A stretch of 64,000 nucleotides of DNA from Arcticibacter tournemirensis (GTDB taxonomy: Bacteria; Bacteroidota; Bacteroidia; Sphingobacteriales; Sphingobacteriaceae). Positions 17,441 through 22,580 of this stretch are shown piece by piece. The stretch covers positions 1,798,001 through 1,862,000 of the forward strand of contig NZ_VFPL01000001.1 in the NCBI RefSeq assembly GCF_006716645.1. The letters are read 5' to 3'. The first letter of the stretch is position 1, and the number at the start of each line of letters is the position of its first letter. The notes beneath the pieces are model-generated. The model saw nothing but the letters and a program-made list of their open reading frames with translations. It was not told the DNA's origin and made no database searches. The position numbers and the translations under genes were made by a program.

Positions 17441-18217
17441 TTATTGACCATTTTTCAGACTTTGAATAAATCCAGGGATTTTATCCATATAATCTTCTGA
17501 ATCAAGTAGTCTTACAAAAGCGCTTCCCACAATTGCACCGTTAGCATATTCGCTTGCTTTGCTGAAGCTCTTATTGTCTGAAATTCCGAAACCGATCATC
17601 GTTGGGTTTCTAAGTTTCATATTTTTAATCCGGCCAAAATAATCTTCAGTCCCCGCCGATACAGCAAGGTTCTTCCCGGTGGTCGATGAAGATGAAAGCA
17701 AATAGATAAAACCATTACTCAATTCATCGATCTTGCGGATGCGCTCGTCGGACGTATGAGGGGTGATAAGAAAGATATTGCTGAGGCCTTTACTTTCAAA
17801 ACACGAACGGTACATCTCTTCATATTCATACATCGGAAGGTCTGGTACGATCAGTCCGTCAACGCCCACCTCTACACACGATGAGCAGAACCTCTCTACG
17901 CCGTATTGCAGCACCGGGTTTACATATCCCATCAGCAGTACCGGGATAGAAACTCTTTTCCGAAGGTCCTTCAATTGTTCAAAAAGTACTTTTACAGTCA
18001 TCCCGTTTTCGATAGCTTTTTGCGAGCTGTTCTGAATAACTGGTCCATCGGCCAGAGGATCAGAATACGGTATCCCGATCTCAAGAAAATCCGCCCCTGC
18101 CTTTTCCAGCGCCTCTGCAATATCAACAGTGCTGTTCAGATCAGGATATCCGGCGGTAAAAAATATAGATAATACAGAAGATTTTTTCTGTTCAAATACG
18201 TTTTTAATTCTGTTCAC
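17441..18217 (-). CDS. trpA: Tryptophan synthase alpha subunit
   Basis: Cleaves indole-3-glycerol phosphate to indole and glyceraldehyde 3-phosphate, passing indole to TrpB through a tunnel. The 258-residue TIM barrel shows the catalytic Glu in DFLEIGIPYSDPLADGP (about 42-58) with the following Asp, the MGYVNPVLQYG strand, GVDGLIVPDLP, and the phosphate-binding YLLSSSSTTG and IGFGISDN loops. It is the last gene of trpD-F-B-A. The start is 89 bases after the trpB stop, the only sizeable gap in the operon, filled with short TTTAGAGT and ACTTTCAACTTT words. Confidence 0.97.
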   Translation of the reverse strand: MNRIKNVFEQKKSSVLSIFFTAGYPDLNSTVDIAEALEKAGADFLEIGIPYSDPLADGPVIQNSSQKAIENGMTVKVLFEQLKDLRKRVSIPVLLMGYVNPVLQYGVERFCSSCVEVGVDGLIVPDLPMYEYEEMYRSCFESKGLSNIFLITPHTSDERIRKIDELSNGFIYLLSSSSTTGKNLAVSAGTEDYFGRIKNMKLRNPTMIGFGISDNKSFSKASEYANGAIVGSAFVRLLDSEDYMDKIPGFIQSLKNGQ

Positions 18218-18306: not shown

Positions 18307-19488
18307 TCATAGTCCAAAATATTTCATATAAGTATCGAGGTCTTTATCTCCCCGGCCCGAAAGGCAAACGACTACAGTCTCATTACCTTCAAACTTCATC
18401 TTGTCGAGATAGGCAAAGGCATGAGCACTTTCGATTGCAGGGATAATGCCTTCAAGTTTCGCCAGCTGCAGTCCTGCCTGCATCGCTTCATCATCAGTAA
18501 TACTTACATATTCAGCTCGCTTTGAAGCATAAAGATGGGCGTGTTGCGGGCCGATACCAGGGTAATCGAGGCCTGCTGATATAGAGTAGGGTTCTACAAC
18601 CTGGCCATCTTCAGTTTGCATTACTATTGAGCGGCTGCCGTGAAGCACCCCTTCTTTGCCGAGCAGGGTTGTAGCCGCAGATTCTCCTGTTTCTACTCCT
18701 TTACCTGCAGCTTCTACCGCAATCAGTTTAACATCATCGTCGTCGAGGAAATGGTAAAACATTCCCATCGCATTACTTCCGCCTCCAACACAAGCAAGAA
18801 CATAGTCAGGGTTCGATTTACCTGTTTTCTCCTTTAGCTGCCATTTAGTTTCCTCTGAAATAATTGACTGGAACCGCGCTACCATATCCGGATAAGGATG
18901 TGGACCCACTACCGATCCGATGATGTAATGCGTGTCGGCAGGGTTGTTGATCCAGTCGCGTAAAGCCTCGTTTGTTGCGTCCTTTAGTGTTCTGCTTCCC
19001 GAAAGGGCCGGAATTACCGTAGCACCCATCATTTTCATCCGGGCAACATTAGGAGCCTGACGTTCAATATCCACTTCTCCCATGTATACGATGCATTCCA
19101 GGCCTTTTAAAGCGCACACGGTAGCAGTTGCTACTCCATGCTGCCCGGCTCCGGTTTCGGCAATAATGCGTTTCTTACCGAGGCGCTCTGCCAGCAGGAT
19201 CTGGCCCACTGTATTGTTGATCTTGTGCGCACCCGTATGATTCAGGTCCTCACGTTTTAAATAGATGGTGGTTCCGTACTTTTCCGACAGGCGCTCTGCC
19301 AGATAAAGCGGCGAAGGGCGGCCAACGTAGTCTTTCAGCAGTCCCATATACTCTTCTTTGAACTTGGGATCTGCAATCATTTCGAGGTAGACCTCATTTA
19401 GCTCTTTTATGTTAGGATACAGCATTTCGGGAATATAGGCCCCCCCGAAATTTCCATAATATCCTTTTTCGTTTACATGATAGCTCAT
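18307..19488 (-). CDS. trpB: Tryptophan synthase beta subunit
   Basis: PLP enzyme joining indole and serine to make tryptophan. The 393 residues show the PLP lysine in [13 protein letters not shown], the indole-site [12 protein letters not shown], the PLP-phosphate loop [13 protein letters not shown], and the C-terminal [13 protein letters not shown]. Its start overlaps the trpF stop by 4 bases (ATGA), implying coupled translation. It is a TrpB1-type protein, as expected next to trpA. Confidence 0.98.
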
Positions 19489-20171
19489 AATTTCTCCTTT
19501 TCTGCTTGCGCAGACAACTTTTTTATATGTTCAAAAATGATATTTAATTTGTTAATGTCTTTTAGTCCAGGTTCTGTTTCGAACCTGCTGTTCAGGTCGA
19601 GTGCATACAGGTTGGCGGCATCAAAGTCACTGAGTGTTCCAATGTTTTCTATGCCCAATCCCCCGCTTAAGAAATATCCTTTCTTACTTTGGCTTTTTTT
19701 CAGGAGGTCCCAGTTAAACACTTTTCCTGAGCCGCCATGTGCCGGAGTTTTTGTATCGAACAGGAAGTAGTCGGTGGTTTCTTCATAAGCGTTGAGCATT
19801 CCATAATCAAACGATTCATCAATCCCGAATGCCTTGATCACTTCAATTCCTTCTAACCGGATTTGTCCGCATAATTCCGAAGGCTCATTTCCATGCAGTT
19901 GAACGGCATCAAGCTGGTATTTCTTTACCTTCTCTATGATCTCATTAAACGGGGCATTTACAAATACACCGGTCTTTTTAATTGTTTGCGGCAGGTTTCT
20001 CAGAATGTCTTCATTCAGGCTGTTTGCAAACCGTTTAGAAGCAGGGTAGAAGATGAAACCCATGTAGTCAGGATTTAATGCTGCTACCTGCATAATGTTT
20101 TCCGGCTCGCGCATGCCACAAACTTTGAGTTTGGGCCTGCTGACGTTCTTACTTATGCCTTGACCATTCAT
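19485..20171 (-). CDS. trpF: Phosphoribosylanthranilate isomerase
   Basis: Isomerises phosphoribosylanthranilate to the carboxyphenylamino-deoxyribulose phosphate. The 228-residue TIM barrel has the catalytic Cys in [12 protein letters not shown], the LHGNEP strand, the catalytic Asp in [15 protein letters not shown] and the phosphate site GGLGIENIG. Start and the trpD stop share one base. The next enzyme, TrpC (indole-glycerol-phosphate synthase), is not fused and not encoded in this window. Confidence 0.96.
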
Positions 20172-21163
20172 CAGCTTATAGATAAGAGAGTTTTAAAGCT
20201 TACAAGCGCACGTTTGCTCAGGAGCGATTCCTCTGCTTCATAATAACAATCGGCAAAAGATTTGCCGCTGTGGATGGTTTTAATAGCCAGCGCTGCATTG
20301 CTCAGAACCACATTATTCTGTTCTGAAGTGCCTTTCCCTTCAAGCACATTCATAAAGATGGCTGCCGATTCCTCAACAGAACTTCCACCCCCTATTTGTT
20401 CCGGTTTTATCTTGTCAAAGCCCAACTGGTCAAGCGTGTAAATATATTCTCCATCATTAGAGAACGTTTTAAAGCTGCCTGTAAGCGAAATCTCGTCGTA
20501 CCCGTCGAGGGCATGTAAGATCGTATACTGTTTGTCCGACTTCTGGTACAGGTAAGCGTATATCCGGGCAAGCTCGAGACTGAATACCCCGACCACCTGG
20601 TATTTTGGCTTTGCAGGATTCACCATTGGGCCCAGCATATTGAAAAACGTTTTTACGCCAAGTTCCTTTCGGATCGGTCCTACGTTCTTCATCGCAGGAT
20701 GAAAAAGTGGCGCATGTAAAAAACAGATACCTGCCTCTTCCACGCTCTTTTTAAGATGCGACGTATCGTTACTAAACTTGTACCCCAGAAACTCCATTAC
20801 GTTGGATGACCCGCATCCCGAAGAAACACCATAGTTGCCATGCTTTGCTACACCATACCCGGCGCCGGCAACCACAAACGAGGCAAGTGTTGAGATATTG
20901 AATGTGTCTTTTCCATCACCGCCCGTACCGCACAGGTCGATCAGGTCGTACTGCTCTAATCCGGGGCTAAGGCAAAGGTCGAGCATGGCATCCCTGAATC
21001 CTTCCAGTTCGTCTACAGTAATGCTCCGCATACAATAGGCCGTCATGAAAGCAGCCATTTGAGATGTGTTGTATTTACCTCCGGTGATATTGGTTAAAAT
21101 GGCTTTTGCCTCCTGCGTGTTGAAGCTTTTGTGCTCAAATAAATGATTTAATATTTGTTTCAT
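20171..21163 (-). CDS. trpD: Anthranilate phosphoribosyltransferase
   Basis: Transfers phosphoribose from PRPP to anthranilate. The 330-residue protein shows the PRPP-binding DLCGTGGDGKDTFNIST (about 77-93), KHGNYGVSSGCGSSNVME and the metal-binding region around DGYDEISLTG. It is not fused to a TrpG amidotransferase. As first gene of the trpD-F-B-A operon it lies 27 bases after the leader terminator, so its transcription is directly exposed to attenuation. Confidence 0.97.
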   Translation of the reverse strand: MKQILNHLFEHKSFNTQEAKAILTNITGGKYNTSQMAAFMTAYCMRSITVDELEGFRDAMLDLCLSPGLEQYDLIDLCGTGGDGKDTFNISTLASFVVAGAGYGVAKHGNYGVSSGCGSSNVMEFLGYKFSNDTSHLKKSVEEAGICFLHAPLFHPAMKNVGPIRKELGVKTFFNMLGPMVNPAKPKYQVVGVFSLELARIYAYLYQKSDKQYTILHALDGYDEISLTGSFKTFSNDGEYIYTLDQLGFDKIKPEQIGGGSSVEESAAIFMNVLEGKGTSEQNNVVLSNAALAIKTIHSGKSFADCYYEAEESLLSKRALVSFKTLLSIS

Positions 21164-21190
21164 TATCTGTTTGTTTTTGCCCGCAAAGAC

Positions 21191-21218
21191 AAAAAAAAAG
21201 GTTGCCTTGCGGGCAACC
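21191..21218 (-). terminator. Attenuator terminator of the trp operon
   Basis: On the minus strand GGTTGCC-CGCAA-GGCAACC (21218-21200) is followed by nine T's (21199-21191), a textbook intrinsic terminator placed between the Trp-rich leader peptide and trpD. The 5' arm and loop could instead pair with GGCAAACTG just after the leader stop (21258-21250), the expected antiterminator. A 10-base perfect complement to the stem also occurs downstream at 21177-21186. Confidence 0.85.
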
Positions 21219-21257
21219 CTGTTTATCTTATAATAATTACTTACATATACAGTTTGC

Positions 21258-21277
21258 CACTACGATAAATCGAAGTG
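21258..21277 (-). promoter_or_regulatory. Leader hairpin (pause/protector) of the trp attenuator
   Basis: On the minus strand CACT-T-CGA-TTTA-TCG-T-AGTG folds into a 4+3 base-pair stem with one T-T mismatch. Its 5' arm begins right after the three Trp codons and its 3' arm runs into the antiterminator segment, so a ribosome stalled at Trp codons would block it. The structure is read by eye, without energy calculation. Confidence 0.6.
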
Positions 21278-21310
21278 CCACCACCAGATATGTATGTTGT
21301 TTATTTTCAT
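21260..21310 (-). CDS. trpL: trp operon leader peptide with three consecutive Trp codons
   Basis: A 16-codon reading frame, MKINNIHIWWWHFDLS, with ATG at 21310 and TAG at 21260. Three of 16 codons are tandem TGG, far above chance in a 51-base frame placed exactly between a promoter and a terminator ahead of trp genes. The peptide serves as a sensor: with scarce charged tRNA-Trp the ribosome stalls at WWW, the CACT hairpin cannot form, GGCAAACTG pairs with the terminator's 5' arm and the operon is read. The start is 4-7 bases from the predicted transcription start, so translation would begin nearly leaderless. Too short for ordinary gene finders. Confidence 0.87.
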   Translation of the reverse strand: MKINNIHIWWWHFDLS

Positions 21311-21320
21311 TCGTGTCTGA

Positions 21321-21350
21321 CAAATATGAATATATCTTTTGGTTTGACAA
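21321..21350 (-). promoter_or_regulatory. Promoter of the trp operon
   Basis: Minus strand: TTG (21350-21348), exactly 19 bases, then CATATTTG (21328-21321), one mismatch from TAnnTTTG. The predicted start of transcription, about 21314-21317, lies just ahead of the leader peptide ATG. Confidence 0.65.
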
Positions 21351-21360
21351 AATTTATTTT

Positions 21361-21695
21361 AAGGTATCAAGTATATAGTATCAAGTATCAAGACACAAGT
21401 ATCAAGACACAAGTATCAAGTTTGGTAAAATAGCAAAACATGTATTAACAGACTTGAGCAGTCGCTCATGAATTTTTCCATATTTTACCTATATTGTGAC
21501 GTCTAAAACAGGCAAGAACATCGCTTCAAGCTTATCGTAGAATTTATTAAAGCACATCCTGGTACGTACGTCTTGATACTTGATACTATATACCTGATAC
21601 TTGGATAATACGTACATCGTGATACTTGATATTAAATGCTTGATACTTGGATAATTCAGCGTCTTGATACCTGATACTAAATACTATACTAAAAT
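21361..21695. repeat. Inverted GTATCAAG word-repeat region upstream of yitT
   Basis: No gene is seen here. The left end (21365-21421) holds seven or so GTATCAAG words, and the right end (21570-21690) holds the reverse complement CTTGATAC repeatedly. A 24-base block at 21371-21394 is a perfect inverted copy of 21570-21593. The 175 bases between are ordinary AT-rich sequence. The right arm runs up to the yitT start codon and so occupies the place of its promoter and leader. Confidence 0.8.
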
Positions 21696-22580
21696 ATGAT
21701 TAACAGAAGAAAGAGGTACAATTTATCACTAAAACAACGATTACTAAAGATTCTTTTTGTTATTTTGGGAGTATTACTGGCGGCTTTTGGATTAAAGGGA
21801 TTCCTGCTTCCGAATGAATTCATCGATGGGGGAGTCACCGGGATATCCTTGTTAGCGAATCACATTACCGGCGTACCTGTTTCCGTATGGCTGCTTGTGT
21901 TTAACGCTCCTTTTATTCTTCTTGGTTTACGGCAGATCGGAAAACCCTTTGCTCTTTATACCCTGTTTGCGGTTGTAGGCCTGTCATTAGTGATTTTCTT
22001 TTTCGACTTTCCCGTAATAACGCATGATAAGCTGCTGATATCTATATTCGGCGGATTCTTCCTTGGAGCGGGTATCGGCTTTGCAATGAGGGGAGGATGC
22101 GTACTCGACGGTACTGAAATTATTGCAGTGTACATTAACCGCAAGAGTGTTTTCTCTATCGGTGATATCATCATGATCATCAATGTTGCGATCTTCATCT
22201 GTGCGGCTTTTATTTTAGGAATAGAGTCTGCATTATACTCGATACTAACCTATCTTTCTGCCTCGAAAACAGTGGATTTTATTATTCAGGGGATCGAGGA
22301 GTACACCGGAGTAACGATCATATCTGCCAAGAGCCACGAGATAAAGGAAGCAATCACAACAAATCTCAAGCGTGGCGTGACGGTGTATAAAGGAGAGCGC
22401 GGTTACGGTGGCAATCAGTACAGCGACAAAGAAATAGATATCATCTTTACGGTAGTAACCCGTCTCGAAGTATCCAAAATAAAGGATGTAGTTCGCTTGA
22501 TCGACAGGAAAGCCTTTATGGTGATGAATGTAATTTCCGAAACAAACGGGGGACTGATAAAAAGGAGACCGTTGCATTAA
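21696..22580 (+). CDS. YitT-family membrane protein
   Basis: 294 residues with five or six transmembrane helices in the first 190 (ILFVILGVLLAAFGLKGFLL, LLVFNAPFILLGL, LYTLFAVVGLSLVIFFF, SIFGGFFLGAGIGFAMRGG, DIIMIINVAIFICAAFIL) and a C-terminal cytoplasmic DUF2179 domain (VTIISAKSHEIKEAI, GVTVYKGERGYGG). The family is widespread; the transported or sensed molecule is not established. It stands alone, with the trp operon divergent and an SDR gene convergent. The sequence in front of the start is CTTGATAC repeat rather than a recognisable promoter. Confidence 0.93.
   Translation: MINRRKRYNLSLKQRLLKILFVILGVLLAAFGLKGFLLPNEFIDGGVTGISLLANHITGVPVSVWLLVFNAPFILLGLRQIGKPFALYTLFAVVGLSLVIFFFDFPVITHDKLLISIFGGFFLGAGIGFAMRGGCVLDGTEIIAVYINRKSVFSIGDIIMIINVAIFICAAFILGIESALYSILTYLSASKTVDFIIQGIEEYTGVTIISAKSHEIKEAITTNLKRGVTVYKGERGYGGNQYSDKEIDIIFTVVTRLEVSKIKDVVRLIDRKAFMVMNVISETNGGLIKRRPLH

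Follow-up and report, generated by a model that had tools for sequence, protein, structure and literature searches.

What controls transcription of the trpD-F-B-A genes in Arcticibacter tournemirensis, and could the short reading frame just ahead of trpD be the part that senses tryptophan? The DNA analysed here, which we call the window, is a 64-kb stretch of that genome. It carries the four genes on its minus strand, and TrpE, TrpG and TrpC are encoded elsewhere in the same genome. From the comparisons described below, we judge it very probable (about 0.92) that the leader is a cis-acting ribosome-mediated transcription attenuator of the enterobacterial trp type, belonging to the Bacteroid-trp leaders. 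The trp genes were called with NCBIfam models and their cut-offs, and trpF is named from its best model match (E 9.8e-48, 162.6 bits), which is under the cut-off of 215, and also from operon position. The features are:

21321..21352, minus strand: predicted promoter of the Bacteroidota sigma type, from sequence
21260..21310, minus strand: trpL leader peptide MKINNIHIWWWHFDLS, 16 codons plus TAG, from sequence and kept in relatives
21278..21286, minus strand: three tandem Trp codons, the putative sensor, from sequence and relatives
21258..21277, minus strand: protector hairpin 1:2, CACTTCGA / TCGTAGTG, with strong covariation
21242..21294, minus strand: outer extension of stem 1:2, TACATAT (21288-21294) with ATATGTA (21242-21248), from the lowest-energy fold
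21250..21258, minus strand: candidate antiterminator 5' arm, segment 2, GGCAAACTG, from folding, permutation and complementarity tests
21212..21221, minus strand: candidate antiterminator 3' arm and terminator 5' arm, segment 3, CAGGGTTGCC, from the same tests and covariation of 3:4
21191..21219, minus strand: intrinsic terminator, hairpin 21200-21219 plus T9 21191-21199, from relatives, covariation and a terminator scan
21173..21190, minus strand: post-terminator element, holding TTGCGGGCAA at 21186-21177, from genus comparison and folding
20171..21163, minus strand: trpD, first gene of the operon, TIGR01245 above cut-off
19485..20171, minus strand: trpF, phosphoribosylanthranilate isomerase models below cut-off
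18307..19488, minus strand: trpB, TIGR00263 above cut-off
17441..18217, minus strand: trpA, TIGR00262 above cut-off

Layout of the trpL leader

All leader parts lie on the minus strand, in the order promoter, trpL, hairpin, antiterminator arms, terminator, trpD. The original prediction had named a promoter, a 16-codon peptide, a hairpin, antiterminator arms and a terminator with nine T's before trpD, and each was found at its place. The protector hairpin, with arms at 21277-21270 and 21265-21258, begins directly past the third TGG codon and holds the stop codon of trpL in its 3' arm. Its predicted outer extension would enclose the Trp codons, and a similar outer stem is present in the consensus of Rfam family RF01692. 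Together with the stretch past the terminator, the leader has a more stable fold than any of 200 shuffles (z -3.6). Four terminator-like sites, the trpL terminator among them, occur in 21100-21720, where shuffles predict 0.3. Within the 64-kb window no other site combines an ATG, TGGTGG, a stop codon and a hairpin with T6, so that trpL is the single fit. A whole-genome search with the pattern ATG..TGGTGG..TGGC was uninformative beyond finding trpL, as it gave 125 matches against 94 for a reversed-pattern control. Between the trp promoter and a divergent gene at 21696, window positions 21364-21684 hold arrays of TTGATAC-type seven-base repeats; with at most one mismatch allowed, the window has 17 copies of CTTGATACTTG, where 1.2 would be expected.

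The predicted promoter consists of TTTTG at 21348-21352, near -33, a 19-base spacer and the -7 box CATATTTG at 21328-21321, which is ten bases from the trpL ATG at 21310. A box fitting the consensus NANNTTTG, taken from a Bacteroides promoter study (PMC7366714), lies 5-17 bases (median 10) ahead of the trpL ATG in 61 of 62 leaders, L085 being the one leader in which no -7 box is recognisable. The centre of motif 1 in that study is at -7, which would put the transcription start some three or four bases past the box and give a trpL 5' UTR of about 2 to 14 bases. We infer that trpL starts very close to its predicted transcription start, behind a very short 5' UTR. UTRs as short as this are rare in mapped Bacteroidota: the same study gives about 3.7% of UTRs below 10 bases in B. 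thetaiotaomicron, and leaderless transcripts are put at 5.5% in F. psychrophilum (PMC9723704). No Shine-Dalgarno site is seen before trpL, as stated in the original prediction, which also called the peptide nearly leaderless. For ribosome-mediated attenuation, the leader provides a clean comparative case from a phylum in which Shine-Dalgarno sites are reportedly absent, and prompt ribosome loading on an almost leaderless ATG becomes testable.

A Trp-rich short reading frame before a Trp operon and an intrinsic terminator before its first gene, two of the marks of a ribosome-mediated attenuator, are both present. From these parts we infer a promoter position, translation of trpL, ribosome stalling, an antiterminator state and a response to Trp that would fit together as follows. 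Transcription would begin a few bases ahead of the trpL ATG, with the ribosome trailing RNA polymerase. With ample Trp-tRNA, the ribosome would translate as far as the stop codon, which the 3' arm of the first hairpin contains, and would cover segment 2, leaving segments 3 and 4 to form the terminator, and trpD-F-B-A would not be transcribed. With scarce Trp-tRNA, it would stall on the three Trp codons and block segment 1; with segment 4 still to be transcribed, segment 2 would then pair with segment 3, preventing the terminator and letting the operon be transcribed. If trpL were not translated at all, 1:2 and 3:4 would form and transcription would stop.

Conservation and base pairing among relatives

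The leader was followed in the best 80 of 588 confirmed trpD loci, chosen by likeness to the trpD of the window. In all 59 near relatives (L034-L092, which include Pararcticibacter, Mucilaginibacter, Pedobacter, Pelobium and Sphingobacterium), a peptide that starts with ATG and contains adjacent Trp codons is encoded no more than about 530 bases upstream of trpD. The codons encode WWW in 57 of them and WW in L036 and L058, and a hairpin and T-run follow the peptide in 59/59. Because the leader is conserved to this extent, a chance origin is ruled out. Much of the peptide varies, and what is kept across genera is chiefly the Trp codons with a few adjoining residues. None of the other 21 loci among the best 80 (L093-L113) has an accepted leader directly upstream of trpD. 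In 20 of these 21, trpD lies behind trpE and trpG, and for 16 of those 20 the covariance model R1 described below places a leader just ahead of trpE, each with a WWW peptide and E below 1e-4. L097, labelled Sphingobacteriaceae, has a short contig on which neither a leader nor trpE is present. In L098, L105 and L110, frames with adjacent Trp codons upstream of trpD were discounted because trpD there sits inside an operon.

A less selected sample comprised 61 family genomes, 49 of them with a TrpD match. A leader with adjacent or near-adjacent Trp codons precedes trpD in 44 of the 49, by a criterion that admits W-x-W and non-ATG starts and that counts one weak case, G007, with a GTG start. All four sampled members of the window's genus have the leader, with WWW in G000 and G041 and WLW in G055 and G020. 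In 40 of the other 45, a Trp-codon frame followed by a hairpin and T-run lies within 600 bases of trpD; a leader is missing from that interval in G015, G002, G044, G027 and G008. G008 is 76% complete, and in G015 the matched trpD stands behind another trpD-trpF pair, with an RF01692 match above cut-off on another contig. G002, G044 and G027 (L242, L245 and L247) form one genus (g3), are without adjacent Trp codons before trpD, and are perhaps a natural loss of the sensor. By eye, G002 and G044 retain a terminator-like hairpin upstream of trpD. The trpD of G020, in which the leader is present, matches as two overlapping pieces (L119/L120), one with an internal stop, a possible frameshift or assembly error.

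Model R1 was built from 61 leaders, with L072 left out of the first alignment as a duplicate of L070, and 64 matches were realigned (alignment A2), including a low-scoring opposite-strand match of L081 (33.6 bits) that is counted in the covariation. The alignment was fitted to the 1:2 + 3:4 structure and so favours it; in it, 94.5% of the cells of the two helices are paired, compared with 26-49% when the arms are slid by 1-3 columns. The two helices have 86 two-sided cells versus 34.6 in shuffles, a number that 0 of 500 shuffles matched, and ten pairs with two-sided changes; in hairpin 1:2 alone, four of seven pairs are changed on both sides. When arms were swapped between species in an alignment-free test, 0 of 2000 permutations were as good as the native partners for either helix. 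Folded without a ribosome, 60 of 60 leaders form the terminator and 59 of 60 the hairpin. The protector hairpin and the terminator covary strongly, which is observed directly, as are the parts of the leader, their order and their conservation. In the comparison of relatives that the original prediction had proposed, its ribosome-mediated trp attenuator is borne out in three respects: the Trp codons are retained, the terminator is retained, and compensatory changes are present.

Segments 2 and 3 are also complementary across relatives. In A2, which was not fitted to 2:3, 83.5% of the 2:3 cells are paired versus 26-55% when slid. Column-wise covariation and two-sided changes for 2:3 are not above shuffles in this alignment (480 of 500 as high in score and 31 of 500 in cells paired), and the rows of the window's genus are one column out of register in the antiterminator, which adds to the shortfall. 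Exchanging native for foreign segments was as good in 13 of 2000 permutations, and in 50 of 60 leaders the 2:3 duplex is better than that with a shuffled segment 2 at p<=0.05 (L049 was left out of the stall and duplex tests, giving n=60). To mimic a stalled ribosome, the Trp codons were masked and segment 4 was left out; 2:3 then forms with at least 7 pairs in 60/60 leaders. In this stalled fold native leaders make 10.5 pairs to segment 3 versus 5.0 in shuffles, but in energy only 17 of 60 are better than shuffles at p<=0.05, the window having p=0.06. As judged from the sequences, the antiterminator is the least supported part of the attenuator, with conserved complementarity and covariation that does not support it.

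When a ribosome is placed on the second Trp codon of the full leader, the terminator is still preferred at equilibrium in 58/60; when it is placed at the stop codon, five or more other pairs to segment 3 are possible in 38/60. The trpL of E. coli K-12 behaves alike under the same masks, including the preference for the terminator at equilibrium, so termination or readthrough would have to be decided kinetically, in the manner of the classic attenuator.

These data also bear on other ways in which the leader could act. It might be mainly translational, with a hairpin near the trpD start that blocks initiation until the leader ribosome relieves it, and with little termination. The terminator T-run does start 15-19 bases ahead of the trpD ATG in 21 of the 59 relatives (L036, L038, L045 and others; L053 is a 22nd locus with a T-run at this distance, but not that of the terminator), so translation of trpD may be influenced by the hairpin as well. 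However, the T-run starts 36 bases from trpD in the window and more than 200 in some relatives, the hairpin and T-run are still kept there, and translational control does not need a T-run; we therefore regard a mainly translational leader as very unlikely. Even harder to credit is that tryptophan is sensed without a leader ribosome, by a T-box, a TRAP-like protein or a riboswitch acting on the same terminator, with the small frame incidental. A terminator with alternative pairings would suit many sensors, but the adjacent Trp codons are kept in every near relative while much of the peptide varies, and the only Rfam families at E<=1 in the 4 kb around the leader are the two trp leaders.

A further suggestion would be an addition to attenuation rather than an alternative: once terminated, the leader might have a second role in trans, either as an sRNA or as a free peptide. 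With so short a predicted 5' UTR and a strong terminator, the result would be a small RNA that starts nearly at the ATG, and rnTrpL/peTrpL of S. meliloti provide a precedent for action in trans, as described in PMC7298713. Set against this, the peptide retains little across genera beyond its Trp codons, and we think such a function unlikely. Attenuation in cis, by a ribosome translating trpL, is the reading that we carry forward.

An element past the terminator

A ten-base complement to the terminator stem at 21177-21186 had been proposed as a third structure. The bases past the T-run can pair with the 5' arm and loop of the terminator in all six members of the genus (p<0.001 each versus shuffles), with energies of -18.5 to -26.7 kcal/mol. 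Of 53 loci outside the genus, two show such pairing at p<=0.05, as do five of 32 in an overlapping set. In a competing fold, the T-run pairs with the A-rich bases after it and the terminator stays intact. This competing fold is the minimum in four of the six genus members, and the third helix is the minimum in two, the window (-21.2 against -19.8) and G041. The ten-base structure as the sole fold was rejected, since it is the lowest-energy fold in only these two.

Two columns of the third helix are changed on both sides between sub-groups, and with six sequences 44 of 500 shuffles show covariation as high, which is suggestive only. Tested against the arms of the other species, the native partner comes out best or equal best in only three of six. 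Past the trpE terminators described below, a similar element has shuffle p<=0.05 in three of six genus members and in 0 of 23 loci in other genera. On these sequence comparisons, the post-terminator element appears to be real and genus-specific, with two competing foldings.

The element is copied only after readthrough, so it should not affect the termination decision, and its role, if any, would be in the readthrough mRNA. A tentative and rather doubtful suggestion is that it provides a second stage in this genus, invading the terminator hairpin or tying up the T-run in readthrough transcripts and thereby controlling either what happens to the mRNA or how accessible its A-rich trpD start region is. 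If true, a transcriptional attenuator would be coupled to a post-readthrough RNA switch.

Known leaders and the split operon

Leaders of this kind have been described in the phylum. RF01692, the Bacteroid-trp family (Bacteroidete tryptophan peptide leader RNA), is listed in a table by Weinberg and colleagues, 2010 (PMC2864571). The window leader scores 34.3 bits over the full model (E 0.26) against a gathering cut-off of 49, so the standard Rfam threshold misses it; no Rfam match reaches its gathering cut-off anywhere in the window. That cut-off misses most family genomes tested, as 8 of 151 pass it; of the same 151, 83 are matched at E<=1. Because the window and most family genomes fall below it, membership was assigned via linking relatives and not by score. 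The positions marked by RF01692 and by R1 coincide in all 31 loci compared, which are that of the window and the 30 that match RF01692 best, and this places the window leader in the family as a divergent member. Like the family, it is found in Bacteroidota, would act on Trp biosynthesis, and has tandem Trp codons enclosed by a hairpin, as in the consensus. It differs in preceding trpD of a split operon: RF01692 passes its cut-off in 8 of 13 other loci searched, each ahead of trpE of an unsplit trp operon. R1 found a match at E<=0.01 in 63 of 198 phylum genomes. In the genome of the window, its matches besides trpL and the trpE leader have E of 0.05 to 9. In the second and third RF01692 matches in that genome (L002, L003), the sole R1 match has E 0.8 and was taken as chance.

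The enterobacterial trpL family, RF00513 (Trp_leader), matches the window at 34.0 bits (E 2.5e-4), below its gathering cut-off of 41. Layout and logic are alike, as is the masked folding of the E. coli leader, whereas the window has a Bacteroidota-type promoter, a very short predicted 5' UTR and no visible Shine-Dalgarno site. The E. coli trpL precedes trpE, and that of the window precedes trpD.

The original prediction knew of no described case in Bacteroidota, which RF01692 and two reports contradict. In Flavobacterium psychrophilum, Bacteroid-trp has been noted ahead of the trp operon (PMC6414381), and amino-acid operons of this species have been inferred to use leader-peptide attenuation (PMC9723704). 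These attenuators share the phylum and the proposed mechanism with the window leader but belong to another family, and the available parts of both reports do not mention two attenuators on split operons. The trpL of Sinorhizobium meliloti starts at or next to the 5' end of its transcript, a position that was measured there and is predicted in the window (PMC7298713). It encodes a 14-residue peptide before trpE(G) in an alphaproteobacterium, and trans functions are reported for it in the same source.

In the family, the trp genes appear to be divided between two operons, trpEGC and trpDFBA, with one attenuator for each. In open-licence literature on Bacteroidota trp attenuation we found no reports of split trp operons with two attenuators and no experimental tests of such attenuation. 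The pair of attenuators on a split operon, the near-leaderless leader peptide and the genus-specific post-terminator element seem to be fresh. The genome of the window has a second WWW leader and terminator ahead of trpE-trpG-trpC (L124:1284-1465, contig C1 at about 121.4 kb). Its peptide, MLIIKHTQNWWWHAISSAGNRYVYTE, differs from trpL in its letters, and the order of the parts is equal. With a Trp-codon attenuator on both halves of the operon, a single cell offers two such leaders for direct comparison.

A WWW leader precedes trpE in all six genus genomes. More widely, a WW, WLW or WCW frame lies upstream of trpE in 30 of 30 family loci, taken from the 30 best of the 50 genomes that TrpE matched; the shortest form of each frame was taken, with a GTG or TTG start in five of the 30. 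Terminators of the trpE leaders were checked in the genus, and T-runs were listed outside it. In L034-L092 the gene run begins at trpD and comprises trpD-F-B-A in 52 of 59 loci and a shorter part of it in seven. In the outgroup, by contrast, trpE-trpG-trpD-trpC-trpF form one run in 20 of 21 loci, and so the split goes with two attenuators, one for each half.
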